Below are positions 39,062-44,465 of a stretch of 64,000 bases of DNA, piece by piece; the first letter of the stretch is position 1; every line of letters starts with the position of its first letter. Source of the DNA: Spirulina subsalsa PCC 9445 (lineage in GTDB: Bacteria; Cyanobacteriota; Cyanobacteriia; Cyanobacteriales; Spirulinaceae). Below the pieces are notes generated by a model. The model worked only from the letters and a program-made list of their open reading frames with translations, was not told the origin of the DNA and made no database searches. Location of the stretch: contig NZ_JH980292.1 in NCBI RefSeq assembly GCF_000314005.1, positions 3,384,121 to 3,448,120 on the forward strand. Reading direction: 5' to 3'. The position numbers and the translations under genes were made by a program.

Positions 39062-39676
39062 ATGACCCACGTTCAACAACTAATTACCGCCATTGAACAG
39101 GCCACCTCTCCGAATACTTTGGTTCAAGCGGTTTGGAATTTGGCCAACGCGCAGGATCTCGACGCGATTCCGACCTTAATCGAAGTCTTGGGCTACAATA
39201 ACCCCGGCGCGGCCGTGGCGGCTGTGGAGGGACTGGTTAAACTGGGGGAACAAGCCGTTCCCATTCTCTTGGAAAATATTGACGGTTATGATTATGGGGC
39301 GAGAGCTTGGGCGAATCGCGCTCTGGCTCGGATTGGGGATCCTCGGGCCTTGGAGATGCTCCTAGAGGCGGCTAGTCAGGATTTCGCCTTAAGTGTTCGT
39401 CGGGCGGCGGCTAAGGGTTTGGGGGGGATCCAGTGGGAGAAACTGCCCCCGAAGGAGCGAACAACTGCCCAAGAACGCACCTTGACCACCTTAGCGCATA
39501 TCTTAACCAAGGATGAGGAATGGGTGGTGAGGTATGCGGCCGTTGTGGGATTGGAGGGCTTAGGGCAACAACAGAGTCAGTTTCGGGAGCGGATTGGGGA
39601 GATTTGGCGATCGCATTTGTCCCAAGAATCGGAACTGGCTGTACGCGCTCGCCTTCAATGGGCGAACAAAATTTAG
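39062..39676 (+). CDS. cpcF: Phycocyanobilin lyase subunit CpcF
   Basis: A 204-residue HEAT-repeat protein, the partner of CpcE. Repeats include YDYGARAWANRALARIGDPR, SVRRAAAKGLGG and WVVRYAAVVGLEGLGQQQ. The frame is complete and of normal length, ending RLQWANKI. A second, internally deleted copy of its sequence lies 2.2 kb downstream (41903-42131), with a BglII-like restriction-modification pair between the two. A short copy of the GCTTGCTGAATAAGTCC motif follows the stop. Confidence 0.95.
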   Translation: MTHVQQLITAIEQATSPNTLVQAVWNLANAQDLDAIPTLIEVLGYNNPGAAVAAVEGLVKLGEQAVPILLENIDGYDYGARAWANRALARIGDPRALEMLLEAASQDFALSVRRAAAKGLGGIQWEKLPPKERTTAQERTLTTLAHILTKDEEWVVRYAAVVGLEGLGQQQSQFRERIGEIWRSHLSQESELAVRARLQWANKI

Positions 39677-39678
39677 CG

Positions 39679-39698
39679 AAGGCTTGCTGAATAAGTCC
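39679..39698 (+). repeat. Dispersed GGGTTTGCTGAATAAGTCC motif, forward copy after cpcF
   Basis: AGGCTTGCTGAATAAGTCCT is close to the copy at 23686. A degenerate reverse copy (GACTGATTCAGCAAGCCCTA) lies just before cpcF at 39028-39046, so two inverted copies flank cpcF. Confidence 0.55.
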
Positions 39699-39964
39699 TG
39701 GAGTTAGGAATAGGGCGGAGGGGGGAAGAGGTCAACTGTTCCCCCCTCCCCGAACCTTCCCCTTTTGCACACAACTCAAGTTAAATTGATATTAAGACTG
39801 ATGTATTGCTTAAGAGGAAATCACCAGATACAATGGAATCCTAAGCTGATAGGCATTTAACCGCCGATTCCATACGCTAAAACCTTTGACTCCCTTGGAT
39901 TGAGATAGAAATTTAAATGATTAACAGCTTAAGTTCCAAACTAGACTTGTCATTAGACCTTGAA

Positions 39965-40040
39965 CAAAAATAGCAACGCATTCCCCCACCTCGCCCTAGG
40001 TAGGTGGGGGGAGCCTCATTGGTAGTTAATCTCCCAAATT
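39965..40040 (+). mobile_element. Possible solo end of an IS200/IS605-type element
   Basis: The layout GCAACGCATTCCCCCACCT, then a loop, then AGGTGGGGGGAGCCTCATTGG recalls the hairpin ends of IS605-family elements, in which a GCATTC-type stretch precedes a C-rich/G-rich stem. The perfect stem is CCCCCACCT (39983-39991) with AGGTGGGGG (40002-40010). No transposase is attached, so a terminator-like hairpin is the alternative. Confidence 0.35.
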
Positions 40041-40044
40041 TTTG

Positions 40045-41166
40045 ATGAATTCGATGAACGAAACCACTCAGCACCAATATCTACCCATTAATGCCTTGTA
40101 TTTGGGGGATTGCCTGACCTTCCTGCGGTCGTTGCCTGATCAATCTGTAGACTTAATCTTATCATCTCCGCCCTACAATTTAGGCAAAGAATATGAATCC
40201 AGAAAAGCACTTGATCTCTATCTGACAGAGCAGCGTAAGGTATTAAAAGAATGCGCCCGATTGTTAAAGTCTTCTGGTTCAATTTTTTGGCAGGTTGGGG
40301 CTTTTTCTCAATCTGGCTCTTTGATTCCATTGGATATCCGTTTTTTCCCAATTCTAGAGTCACTGGGGTTATATCCTCGGAATCGAATTGTTTGGATCAG
40401 ACAACATGGTTTACATAGTCGCAACAAATTTTCTTGTAGACACGAAACAATTTTATGGTTTACAAAAAGTGATCAATACACTTTTAATCTTGATCCAATT
40501 CGAGTTCCACAAAAATATAAAAATAAAAAGCACTATCGCGGCGCAAAAAAAGGAGAATTTTCCTGTCATCCTGACGGAAAGAATCCTGGAGATATTTGGC
40601 TATTCCGCAATGTGAAACATAATCATGAGGAACAAACGATTCACCCTTGTCAGTTTCCCGAAGATTTAGTAGCGAGAATAATTCTATCTACTACGAATGA
40701 AGGTAATATTGTGCTTGATCCTTATATGGGATCGGGAACAGTTGCTGTAGTTGCACAAAATCATAATCGATACTATATGGGTTCAGAAATCGATGCCCAT
40801 TATTATAAAGTTGCTCAAAGAAGATTATTAGGCATTCCGGATCAAGATAATTATTTCCCCAATTTAAAAACGTTACGTTCTTATGTAGAAAAAACAGGCG
40901 AACCTATTGAGAAATTTAAGTTTGACAAGCAAGTTGGTAAGTTTGCGACCCCTCAATCTCAAGCTTGTATTTATCCTGAAAGTTATCATCGTCAAGAATT
41001 AGAGAGACGCTTAGAGTATGAAGAATCAGTCTTTTCTGCAAAACTGAGAGAGGAAGCAGAACCAGAGGATTATTTTGAGGGAGGTCAAGTTAAAAATCAG
41101 TCAAATAGTCAAGAGACTTCTTGGAAAACATTACCTCTTTTCGAGAATATTAACCAATCGCTCTAA
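40045..41166 (+). CDS. DNA methyltransferase, SPPY type (BglII-like R-M partner)
   Basis: A 373-residue DNA N6/N4 methyltransferase. The catalytic motif SPPYNLG (residues 41-47) precedes the SAM-binding DPYMGSGT (225-232), the beta-class order; SPPY is typical of N4-cytosine enzymes. A target-recognition region lies between. The C-terminal 100 residues are charged. The gene is AT-richer than the cpc genes next to it. It faces a BglII-like endonuclease gene, overlapping its 3' end by 17 bases, so together they form a type II restriction-modification system. ATG at 40045 is preferred over the TTG one codon before. m4C and AGATCT specificity are inferences from the partner. Confidence 0.9.
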   Translation: MNSMNETTQHQYLPINALYLGDCLTFLRSLPDQSVDLILSSPPYNLGKEYESRKALDLYLTEQRKVLKECARLLKSSGSIFWQVGAFSQSGSLIPLDIRFFPILESLGLYPRNRIVWIRQHGLHSRNKFSCRHETILWFTKSDQYTFNLDPIRVPQKYKNKKHYRGAKKGEFSCHPDGKNPGDIWLFRNVKHNHEEQTIHPCQFPEDLVARIILSTTNEGNIVLDPYMGSGTVAVVAQNHNRYYMGSEIDAHYYKVAQRRLLGIPDQDNYFPNLKTLRSYVEKTGEPIEKFKFDKQVGKFATPQSQACIYPESYHRQELERRLEYEESVFSAKLREEAEPEDYFEGGQVKNQSNSQETSWKTLPLFENINQSL

Positions 41167-41809
41167 TTTTAAAAGTTTTGCCACTTTTTTGAACCATACA
41201 ATTGATGGGGGTTTGAGATTCAATCCTGCGACTCTGGGGAGACTGGTACTGGGTAAAAATCGCTTGGATCTCGTTTTCTATATCCACATTAAGTCCGACA
41301 ATCCTAGTGGGTAAACTAAAGATATTTGCTGTTTCAATAACGAGCAGTTGCTCAACCGCTTGGGTATAATGGAGTGAACTATTTGCAGATGGTAATATAT
41401 CGAACTTTGTTACTAAAACCATCAGAGCAACGGAGTGGCTATTGAGTGCTGATCTTGATTTGAAAAAAACTTCACTTCTGATAATATTATTCAGCAAGAA
41501 TGCGTAGTGAGAAAACTGGATCTCTAATAAAACAGTATTTTTAGTAAAATCAACATCTTTGCCCAATGGGTTTATATGTTCTGGTATGGCTGCATTAGCG
41601 ATCCATCCTTTAGATTGAAGACTGTTCTTGATATAAGCATTGGTTGCAATGGGATCAAAAACCATATTTCCTTTTATACCTTGCTGGTTTGATCCTTTGA
41701 CATAAAGTGGCATAGAACATAACGTTTGCTCAACTTCCATCCACTCAGAGGCAAATTTTCGACTCAAATCCTCGTTCTGATTATTAAAATCTGTATACTC
41801 AATTAACAT
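41150..41809 (-). CDS. BglII-family type II restriction endonuclease
   Basis: A 219-residue endonuclease closely patterned on R.BglII from the first residues (MLIEYTDFNN.., MPLYVKGSNQQ, FDPIATNAYIKN) through the active site. Asp87 in GKDVDF and Glu96/Gln98 in LLEIQF keep the spacing of the BglII catalytic set D-x8-E-x-Q. LNNIIRSEVFFKS and SANSSLHYTQAVEQL also match. BglII cuts A^GATCT; the same site is likely but not proven here. It is convergent with the methyltransferase and overlaps its end by 17 bases. The gene is AT-rich compared with the cpc operon, consistent with transfer. Confidence 0.88.
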   Translation of the reverse strand: MLIEYTDFNNQNEDLSRKFASEWMEVEQTLCSMPLYVKGSNQQGIKGNMVFDPIATNAYIKNSLQSKGWIANAAIPEHINPLGKDVDFTKNTVLLEIQFSHYAFLLNNIIRSEVFFKSRSALNSHSVALMVLVTKFDILPSANSSLHYTQAVEQLLVIETANIFSLPTRIVGLNVDIENEIQAIFTQYQSPQSRRIESQTPINCMVQKSGKTFKIRAIG

Positions 41810-41902
41810 TACCTGGGATTCTTAAAAAAATTTGCAATGAATGAGGTCTAAGGATAATTTACTACATGATTCCCTCCCTAGACATCGGAGACAAGGCAAT
41901 GC

Positions 41903-42131
41903 GCGCAGGATCTCGCCGCGATTCCGACCTTAATTGAAGTCTTATATCTTAGCCAAGGATGAGGAGTGGGTGGTGAGGTATGCGGCCGTTGTGGGATTGG
42001 AGGGCTTAGGACAACAACAGGATCTATTTCGGGAGCGGATTGGGGAGATTTGGCGATCGCACCTACCCCAAGAATCAGAACTAGCTGTGCGCGCTCGCCT
42101 TCAATGGGCGCAACAGAATCTACTTTTGTGA
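41903..42131 (+). pseudogene. Truncated second copy of cpcF
   Basis: The block GCGCAGGATCTCG to GAAGTCTT (41903-41943) matches cpcF 39150-39190 with few changes. It is joined directly to a block from ATATCTTAGCC (about 41945) that matches cpcF from about 39498 to its 3' end. Roughly 305 bases of cpcF are missing at the join, and the join shifts the frame. A 65-codon frame from 41934 remains (ending RLQWAQQNLLL), but it lacks most of CpcF. The two 3' halves are highly alike, so the duplication or exchange is recent. It sits 94 bases from the endonuclease start, on the far side from intact cpcF. Confidence 0.9.
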
Positions 42132-42202
42132 TTTGGGCGGGAAATCCCTTGGTGGGCAAACTACCCCAGCGACAAGGGAATGGGGAATTGGCGGCCATCT
42201 GG

Positions 42203-42901
42203 TTAAATCGGCAAGCGCTTAATATCTTCATTGGAACCAATCACGACCATAGCGGTACCTTGACTTAAACGACGATTGGGCAGGGGATTAATCTCAAATT
42301 TCTTGTCATCTTCAGCGACAGCAATTAAGGTTAAACCATACCGACCCCGCAGTTGAATTTCTGCAATGGTTTTACCGTGAAACTCTTCGGGAACTAACAC
42401 CTCTACAATACTGTGGTCGGGGTCAAGGTCAAACCGCTCTAAAATGGCGGGTTTGGTGAGAGTATAAGCCAAAGCACAGCCCGCTTCATATTCCGGAAAC
42501 ACTACCTGATCCGCCCCGACTCGTTCTAAGAGTTTGCCATGAATTTCTGAGGAGGCCTTAGCGACAACGTGCTTCACTCCCGCTTCTTTGACGTTAAGGG
42601 TGGTAATAATGCTTTCCTGCACATAGTTACCGATGGCAACAATCACGGTATCAAATTCAAAGATTCCCGCTTCTTTGAGCGCGTTGGGATCCGTGGAATC
42701 TAGGGAGATGGCATGGGTGGCGACTTTATCATTTAGGGCCTGGGCCACTAATTTTTCGCTGATATCGGTGCCTAGGACTTCATACCCCATTTTGTGCAGG
42801 GCCCCGGCAACGGAGCGCCCAAAACGCCCTAGGCCAATTACGGCGAATTGTTTGTTGTCTTGACCGAGACTGGTTAAAAATTTAAGCGATCGCAAGTTCA
42901 C
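42203..42901 (-). CDS. ktrA: Potassium uptake regulator KtrA (TrkA family)
   Basis: A 232-residue RCK protein with an N-terminal TrkA-N Rossmann domain (VIGLGRFGRSVAGALHKMG, about residues 21-39; LDSTDPNALKEAG) and a TrkA-C domain (about 150-232). It gates the KtrB channel in response to nucleotides. GTG at 42901 is preferred because AAGGAT lies 7 bases ahead of it; a TTG two codons upstream is possible. It lies 79 bases after ktrB on the same strand. The truncated cpcF copy is convergent to it. Confidence 0.93.
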   Translation of the reverse strand: MNLRSLKFLTSLGQDNKQFAVIGLGRFGRSVAGALHKMGYEVLGTDISEKLVAQALNDKVATHAISLDSTDPNALKEAGIFEFDTVIVAIGNYVQESIITTLNVKEAGVKHVVAKASSEIHGKLLERVGADQVVFPEYEAGCALAYTLTKPAILERFDLDPDHSIVEVLVPEEFHGKTIAEIQLRGRYGLTLIAVAEDDKKFEINPLPNRRLSQGTAMVVIGSNEDIKRLPI

Positions 42902-42980
42902 ACCCAATCATCCTTTTTTGCTCTCATAGGAATTGATCTCAAATTATCCCCTGTTTTGCCTCTCTCGTCTTCCTCCCCCC

Positions 42981-44318
42981 TTAGCCAACTAATAAATTTT
43001 CCTCGGGATATTGCAAACTGGTAGGACGCGGATCGCCGAAAATCGCCGCCATAAAGACTAAAATCCCAATCCGTCCGGTGTACATCGTGAAAATCAAGAC
43101 CAATTTACTGATATTGGATAAATCTGCCGTGATTCCGGTAGAAAGCCCCACAGTGGCAAAGGCGGATACCACTTCAAACACTAGATGGATAAAATCAAAT
43201 TTCCCAGCTTCGGTAATTGATAAAATCGTGGTGACGCTCACCACCATGGTGGCTGATCCCAAGACAACAGCAATGGCTTTATAAATCAGGGTGTTAGGAA
43301 TCTTGCGACCGTGCATAATCACCTGTTCATTGCCTCGTAGGGTGGAACGAGTACAATTAATTAAAATCCCCAAGGTGGTGGTTTTCAGACCCCCTCCGGT
43401 GCCACTAGGACTAGCCCCGATAAACATAAAGGCAATGGTAATAAATAAGGCAGTGTCGCTCATACTGCCAAAATCCAGACTATTAAATCCTGCGGTTCTG
43501 GTCGTGACCGACTGAAACCAAGCCGCGAAAATTTTTTCTTTTAACGTGAGTTCACCTAATGTATTTGGGTTTAAAAATTCCGTGGTAAAAAAACCAATTG
43601 TTCCGAGAATTAATAAAAACGCTGTCACGCGAACTACTACTTTAGTATTAAGCGAAAAAATAGATAACACTCTTTGTCCATTTAGTTTGGATTTTAACCA
43701 ATATTGGAGTTCTAAAATAACTTGATAGCCAATGCCTCCAAAAATAATTAATAATGGAATCACTAGATTAATTGAAACGGAGTTTTGATAGCTAATCAAG
43801 CTGTCTTCAAACAAGCTAAATCCGGCATTATTCCAAGCACTAATACTGTGAAAAAAAGCTAGCCATAATCCTTGGAAAAAACCATGATCTTTTTGAAAAG
43901 TTTGCAACGTGAGCAACATTCCTGTAAATTCAAAAAACAGGGTTGTTATAAAAATAGACCGAATTAAATGGCGGCTACCTTGTAAAAAAGGACGATCAAA
44001 AGATTCTTGAATGGCCAGCTTTTGCCGTAAGTCAAACTTACGACGCAAGACTAAAATTAAAAAGGTACTGGTGGTCATGTACCCCAGACCGCCAATTTGA
44101 ATTAATAACAAAATAAAACACTGACCCAATGGAGAAAAATGAGTTCCAGTATCGACAACAATTAACCCAGTGACACAGACCGCAGAAGTGGCGGTAAAGA
44201 GGGCAACAATCGGACTATTCCAATGACCGCTACTGGTGGAGATGGGCAGCAAGAGGAGCAATGTTCCGACGGAAATCACGGCCAAAAAACCTAAACAAAT
44301 GGTGCGCGCAATAGTCAT
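42981..44318 (-). CDS. ktrB: Potassium uptake transporter KtrB (TrkH family)
   Basis: A 445-residue membrane transporter with four M1-P-M2 repeats. Selectivity-filter-like segments include FTATSAVCVTGLIVVDTGT, FSISAWNNAGFSLFEDSL, QSVTTRTAGFNSLDFGSM and VSAFATVGLSTGITADLS. Its partner KtrA follows. The Ktr system gives Na+-dependent K+ uptake, important in osmotic stress. ATG at 44318 begins TIARTICLGFLAVISVG, the first helix. A KtrE-like third subunit is not in the window. Confidence 0.94.
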   Translation of the reverse strand: MTIARTICLGFLAVISVGTLLLLLPISTSSGHWNSPIVALFTATSAVCVTGLIVVDTGTHFSPLGQCFILLLIQIGGLGYMTTSTFLILVLRRKFDLRQKLAIQESFDRPFLQGSRHLIRSIFITTLFFEFTGMLLTLQTFQKDHGFFQGLWLAFFHSISAWNNAGFSLFEDSLISYQNSVSINLVIPLLIIFGGIGYQVILELQYWLKSKLNGQRVLSIFSLNTKVVVRVTAFLLILGTIGFFTTEFLNPNTLGELTLKEKIFAAWFQSVTTRTAGFNSLDFGSMSDTALFITIAFMFIGASPSGTGGGLKTTTLGILINCTRSTLRGNEQVIMHGRKIPNTLIYKAIAVVLGSATMVVSVTTILSITEAGKFDFIHLVFEVVSAFATVGLSTGITADLSNISKLVLIFTMYTGRIGILVFMAAIFGDPRPTSLQYPEENLLVG

Positions 44319-44465
44319 AAAGTTTCGGCGATTTCAGAAAACTGAACAAATGGTAAAGCAGGAGGATCAAAAGGTTCTGCTGAGAAAATCGTCCTGGAGT
44401 TTCCCCCCATTCTCAAGCAAATTGCTACAATCAGGGCTTATTTATAGCATGAGCCGTTACAGAAA

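Follow-up and report, generated by a model that had tools for sequence, protein, structure and literature searches.

The 64,000-nucleotide stretch of Spirulina subsalsa PCC 9445 analysed here (contig NZ_JH980292.1, positions 3,384,121 to 3,448,120; hereafter the window) carries a BglII-like restriction-modification (R-M) gene pair between an intact copy of cpcF, which encodes a phycocyanobilin lyase subunit, and a fragment of a second cpcF copy. Overall, the fragment looks like a one-off recombination scar between strains rather than a dedicated docking site. Our preferred account, to which we give slightly less than even probability, is that two related Spirulina chromosomes recombined here and that the fragment marks their joint. 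The order of the sequences, their edges, the lack of a fragment between the R remnant and trkA in a second genome (FACHB-351, below) and the substitution counts are observed directly; the two-parent history and the side of the donor are what we infer.

Downstream of cpcF in the window come, in order, a methyltransferase gene (M, 40045-41166, plus strand), an endonuclease gene (R, 41150-41809, minus strand), the tail fragment of cpcF and a gene with a TrkA domain found by Pfam (trkA, 42203-42907, minus strand). Intact cpcF (39062-39676, plus strand) was assigned from alignments and from the NCBIfam CpcF equivalog NF058515, which it matched with 290 bits (cut-off 220); it is preceded by cpcB, cpcA, cpcC, cpcD and cpcE, the first four named from our reading of their translations. 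M and R converge and overlap by 17 bases. Profiles and alignments confirmed the components first named from the letters alone, that is, the intact gene, the methyltransferase, the convergent BglII-like endonuclease and the scrap of cpcF in the same orientation. The further claim of the original prediction, that an island stands beside a displaced cpcF copy and uses the gene as its integration address, held in part. M and R are AT-rich (G+C content 37.5% and 36.5%, against 55% in cpcF, 54% in the fragment and 47% in the window), and the best reading of the fragment makes it a displaced tail from a second allele next to an intact copy; the integration address was not supported. The nearby gene trkH is also low in G+C (41%). 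The open reading frames (ORFs) of at least 60 amino acids between cpcF and trkA comprise M, R, the fragment and otherwise only short ones of 75-120 amino acids that overlap these three; five of the short ORFs, compared with Pfam, gave nothing at E ≤ 0.05 except one chance-level match at 0.05.

The fragment lies about 2.4-2.8 kb from cpcF, in the orientation of that gene, and consists of two pieces on the plus strand. Positions 41902-41943 correspond to cpcF 39148-39189 with 95% identity, and positions 41944-42110 correspond to cpcF 39498-39664 with 92% identity, with homology reaching to about 42123. Aligning the two segments, as had been suggested, upheld the two-piece structure with an internal gap; the gap measures 308 bases, not about 305, and the reading frame is shifted. 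The two copies agree exactly over 44 consecutive bases (39521-39564 in cpcF). The scrap had been placed directly beyond R; in fact 86 bases of the flank upstream of R (41810-41895) and a few more lie between the R start and the fragment. A search of the own genome matched the 3' piece to cpcF with an E value of 1.3e-64, far beyond chance, and no third cpcF copy was seen among the best 40 of 89 candidates. On its other side, the fragment has a 3' flank of its own (42124-42190, 67 bases), which bears no recognisable likeness to the FACHB-351 gap described below or to the sequence downstream of intact cpcF (for the latter, 56 of 300 shuffles scored as well). No further copy of these 67 bases appeared among the matches listed in the own genome or in FACHB-351. 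The intact gene ends in WANKI, while the alignments gave WAQQ... for the fragment and for FACHB-351; near the end of intact cpcF (39660-39676) one base has probably been lost, so that the last residues read ANKI in place of AQQ...

The edges of the fragment became visible by comparison with a second genome of the species, Spirulina subsalsa FACHB-351, these two being the congeneric genomes compared. One FACHB-351 contig (C42) carries cpcF, then a flank in which a block of 48 bases is 88% identical to its counterpart in the window, then the end of a tnpB-like element. Another (C78, NZ_JAIHOM010000055.1) carries, in order, the apparent other end of such an element, an R remnant with its flank, matching the window in two pieces at 95% and 86%, and trkA. 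Given the gene order of the window, C42 presumably adjoins C78. No M was found in FACHB-351 among the matches listed, and the interval between the R remnant and trkA contains no cpcF fragment. The R-M pair and the fragment are thus separable: in FACHB-351 the R remnant precedes trkA and no fragment accompanies it. In that interval FACHB-351 has a palindrome with 15-base arms, the left arm ending in GAGACAAG. The flank upstream of R in the window, which is shared with FACHB-351 (22 of 89 bases differ, counting the start codon), runs to the same GAGACAAG and then passes into the fragment; the fragment starts where the homology stops. Its left edge falls within the loop of this palindrome, which is whole in FACHB-351. 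The palindrome there folds strongly (z -4.3, with 0 of 200 shuffles as good), which makes it a plausible break point. The two-arm pattern occurs at 0 places in PCC 9445 and at 2 in FACHB-351, namely this one and one on contig C249.

These edges suggest how the joint may have formed. One parent would have had the order cpcF-M-R, still visible in decayed form in the FACHB-351 lineage, and the other a cpcF allele standing before trkA with no R-M pair. The two chromosomes would have paired by homology at one end, through the cpc operon or the trk genes, and joined illegitimately at the other, in the palindrome loop upstream of R, so that a tail from the second parent's cpcF allele remained between R and trkA. 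The deletion of 308 bases would have arisen together with the joint or after it. Similar events have been described. In PMC5361080, displaced genes in the type VI secretion system (T6SS) clusters of Vibrio are proposed to come from joints homologous at one end and illegitimate at the other, and homology-facilitated illegitimate recombination is reported at low frequency in E. coli in PMC3240628. As in those cases, a remnant of a displaced allele lies here downstream of another module, and one end of the joint has no homology. On the other hand, the present case involves R-M genes and the gene of a pigment lyase, with putative donor and recipient.

The divergence among the three cpcF copies bears on when the fragment arose. 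Over 209 aligned sites, the fragment and its own genome's cpcF differed at 16, the cpcF genes of PCC 9445 and FACHB-351 at 21, and the fragment and FACHB-351 at 24. At the 30 variable sites, the own cpcF agreed with the fragment 14 times and with FACHB-351 nine times, the fragment agreed with FACHB-351 six times, and one site differed three ways; the imbalance of 14 against 6 had a P value of 0.12. At site 39606 the own cpcF and the fragment have G, and FACHB-351 and 16 of 16 outgroup rows have T. Synonymous divergence per synonymous site (Ks) was 0.24 between the own cpcF and the fragment, 0.33 between the own cpcF and FACHB-351, and 0.42 between FACHB-351 and the fragment. Trees that included 16 of 28 non-congeneric cpcF loci, these having been fetched, grouped the fragment with PCC 9445 cpcF at bootstrap values of 89-92. 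The proposed tree check therefore favoured one placement, but the approximately unbiased (AU) test rejected no alternative: p was 0.12 for own cpcF with FACHB-351 cpcF and 0.16 for FACHB-351 cpcF with the fragment on 209 columns, and 0.10 for the former on the full alignment. By these comparisons the fragment probably does not predate the separation of PCC 9445 and FACHB-351, though gene conversion could mislead.

The kinds of change carry a further hint. Six of the nine changes private to the fragment are synonymous, or seven of ten with the three-way site, by codon count. For dead sequence, neutral expectation is 24-32% synonymous, giving P values of 0.003-0.03 depending on transition bias and count. 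The mostly synonymous private changes are a hint, on small numbers, that the fragment diverged largely while it belonged to a working gene in another lineage, and a hint against a copy made within this genome.

This pattern can be set against a rather unlikely alternative, in which the R-M pair inserted in the 3' part of cpcF with a target duplication of about 530 bases (39148 to about 39676), after which the copy downstream decayed and was later lost in FACHB-351. The anatomy fits as well as it does for the two-parent joint: direct repeats of a host gene flank a two-gene R-M unit, and the upstream copy keeps the gene whole. Insertions of R-M systems with long target duplications have been described (Nobusato 2000 and Furuta 2010, as cited in passages of PMC3031569). 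Here, by contrast, the repeats are 92-95% alike and one has a 308-base deletion, and the fits to FACHB-351 and to the substitution pattern are less good. A downstream copy would have been non-functional from the start, but most of the changes in the fragment are synonymous, an argument that weakens when the cluster at 39616-39620 is set aside. FACHB-351 has an R remnant without the repeat. Fewer sites separate the fragment from the own cpcF than separate FACHB-351 cpcF from it, and the grouping of the fragment with the own copy favours a repeat younger than the insertion. On the side of a target duplication, the AU values of 0.10-0.12 leave the alternative tree standing, and gene conversion could hide a greater age.

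It is also unlikely that part of cpcF was duplicated locally to an ectopic site between R and trkA, after the R-M pair was in place and independently of it. The fragment is nearest to its own genome's cpcF (the 16 differences in 209), lies close by in the same orientation and is missing in FACHB-351, all of which suits such an event; the mostly synonymous private changes do not, nor does the 67-base flank behind the fragment, for which no source was matched and no copy appeared among the matches listed.

Several observations weigh against the joint between two chromosomes. The second parent is hypothetical, because no genome with cpcF next to trkA and free of the island was found among the two Spirulina genomes; both carry the pair or an R remnant. 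With no island-free relative among them, neither of the refuting outcomes named in the original prediction was seen. The position of the fragment in the tree is not firmly resolved (AU p 0.10-0.16). Four of the nine private changes fall within five bases, 39616-39620, and without this cluster 3 of 5 or 4 of 6 are synonymous (P 0.03-0.18). Intact cpcF showed no clear mosaic relative to FACHB-351, with a Ks of 0.36 in the first 145 codons and 0.30 in the rest. The high Ks of trkH (1.09) is unmatched by the fragment. Finally, the flank upstream of R differs between the genomes at 22 of 89 sites, more than would fit if the entire island had been exchanged very recently.

The original prediction had compared the end of cpcF to a tRNA gene, a dedicated address at which islands integrate. 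An intact gene on one side and a tail fragment on the other would suit that proposal, and an att-like core may lie inside the repeats, with which the exact 44-base run common to both copies is compatible. Nevertheless, the repeats are only 92-95% alike overall, and no integrase family was found in Pfam scans of the ORFs between cpcF and trkA. The address did not recur in relatives either. We searched 59 genomes including the own one, with a cpcF match in 58, 57 of these being relatives, and listed matches down to an E value of about 9e-5; three relatives (G011, G039 and G055) had weak matches only. Among the matches listed, none of the 57 relatives had a second high-identity cpcF piece, and the further matches were at most 45% identical, apparently paralogues and additional proteins with HEAT repeats. 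In 28 of the 57 relatives we surveyed the 1.5 kb after cpcF by the translation of the first ORF, with no family search and with later ORFs taken by coordinates only, and recognised no R-M gene; the first ORFs were varied, one being tnpB-like and two Uma2-like. A literature search found no description of cpcF as an integration site, and among the papers listed on restriction in Spirulina subsalsa none was titled on R-M. Taken together, a dedicated address is very improbable.

Judged by sequence, M and R are a BglII-like type II R-M system, R being homologous to the catalytic domain of R.BglII with a methyltransferase adjacent. R resembled the BglII chains in the Protein Data Bank (1d2i, 1dfm and 1es8) over residues 1-197 of its 219 (E 8.3e-48 for 1d2i), matched Pfam Endonuc-BglII at 1.4e-6 and matched PADLOC REase_II at 3.3e-49. 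Asp84, Glu93 and Gln95, which we take to be active-site residues of BglII, align with D, E and Q of R. M is an N6_N4-type methylase (Pfam N6_N4_Mtase, E 1.1e-60), and its SPPY motif is presumably typical of N4-cytosine enzymes. The pair in the window differs from the BglII system in its place beside a cpcF fragment, and its AGATCT specificity is putative.

Across the order, R had matches in 25 of 388 genomes, PCC 9445 and FACHB-351 included. Where R matched with E < 1e-10 in 18 other genomes, a convergent M lay beside it in 17, some of the genes being broken, and the 18th locus was incomplete. Neither cpcF nor trkA was found near the pairs of these 18 genomes in the fetched 2.0-3.6 kb. A scan of genome contigs with R gave one locus, that of FACHB-351, from a listing that may leave out records of the own genome. 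Between PCC 9445 and FACHB-351, the Ks of R was 0.12 (7 of 61.5 sites over 99 codons), below the expectation from a Ks of 0.40 (P 0.00025). This was the lowest value; the 44 other genes compared, in sets of 21 (median 0.47) and 23 (median 0.40), spanned 0.13-1.09, with cpcA nearest at 0.13. The low value looks as if the R-M pair had moved between lineages. A more specific idea, which we consider quite improbable, is that the pair spreads among Spirulina strains attached to the end of a core photosynthesis gene, and that this tail serves as a homology arm and is rebuilt at each insertion, with the resident tail left as a scar.

Avoidance of AGATCT, considered as a sign that the pair recognises this site and has resided in the genome, is weak evidence. 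PCC 9445 had 3 sites against 40.9 expected in the 344 kb sampled, a strong avoidance, but an unspecific one, since 11 other palindromes were rarer still. FACHB-351 had 8 against 38.0 expected in 320 kb, and the difference from PCC 9445 was not significant (P 0.12). Relative G004, in which no R was found, had 15 against 11.2 in 120 kb, and relative G007 had 0 against 2.6 in 80 kb, too few to inform.

Beyond trkA, divergence from FACHB-351 rises. The Ks of trkH (42984-44321) was 1.09, the top value relative to 43 other genes, the next being 1.01 from a partial match; trkA had 0.66, and ribA, the gene after trkH, had 0.30. The peak lies inside trkH, the gene of low G+C, and the region looks like a recombination tract or an allele swap in this comparison. 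One imported tract running from the fragment to trkH was rejected, as the fragment had a Ks of only 0.24 to the own cpcF and 0.42 to FACHB-351, against 1.09 for trkH.

The spacer between cpcF and M is occupied by two families of short dispersed repeats. One (39736-39797) has at least 16 further copies elsewhere in PCC 9445 and the other, hairpin-like (39960-40020), at least 19, each count coming from the best 40 of 250 candidates. Between them lies the 48-base block (39793-39840, plus strand) that aligned downstream of FACHB-351 cpcF. It holds TACAAT (39829-39834) with TTGCTT (39806-39811) 17 bases before it, a possible promoter of M by its sequence; the pair fell below the threshold of our promoter scan and was not among the nine sites listed, a number similar to that in shuffles. 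The next 91 or so bases (39842-39932) resemble a miniature inverted-repeat transposable element with imperfect inverted ends. This repeat has four places in FACHB-351 at 78-80%, of which one copy was read, and no other place in the own genome among the matches listed. In FACHB-351, the end of a tnpB-like element, so named from our reading of its ends, adjoins cpcF at C42:1-126 and breaks the assembly there. This end occurs at at least 21 places at 99-100%, that of C42 included (best 40 of 45 candidates), and several copies of the element stand at contig ends.

The general picture of how such systems move would be unchanged by these results, as earlier work already describes both the insertion of R-M systems between direct repeats (PMC3031569) and illegitimate recombination at one side of a joint (PMC5361080, PMC3240628). 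If the joint between two related chromosomes is the true history, the cpcF locus would be a readable example of R-M genes brought into a chromosome by recombination at a core gene that stays intact, and of the scars that such exchanges leave.

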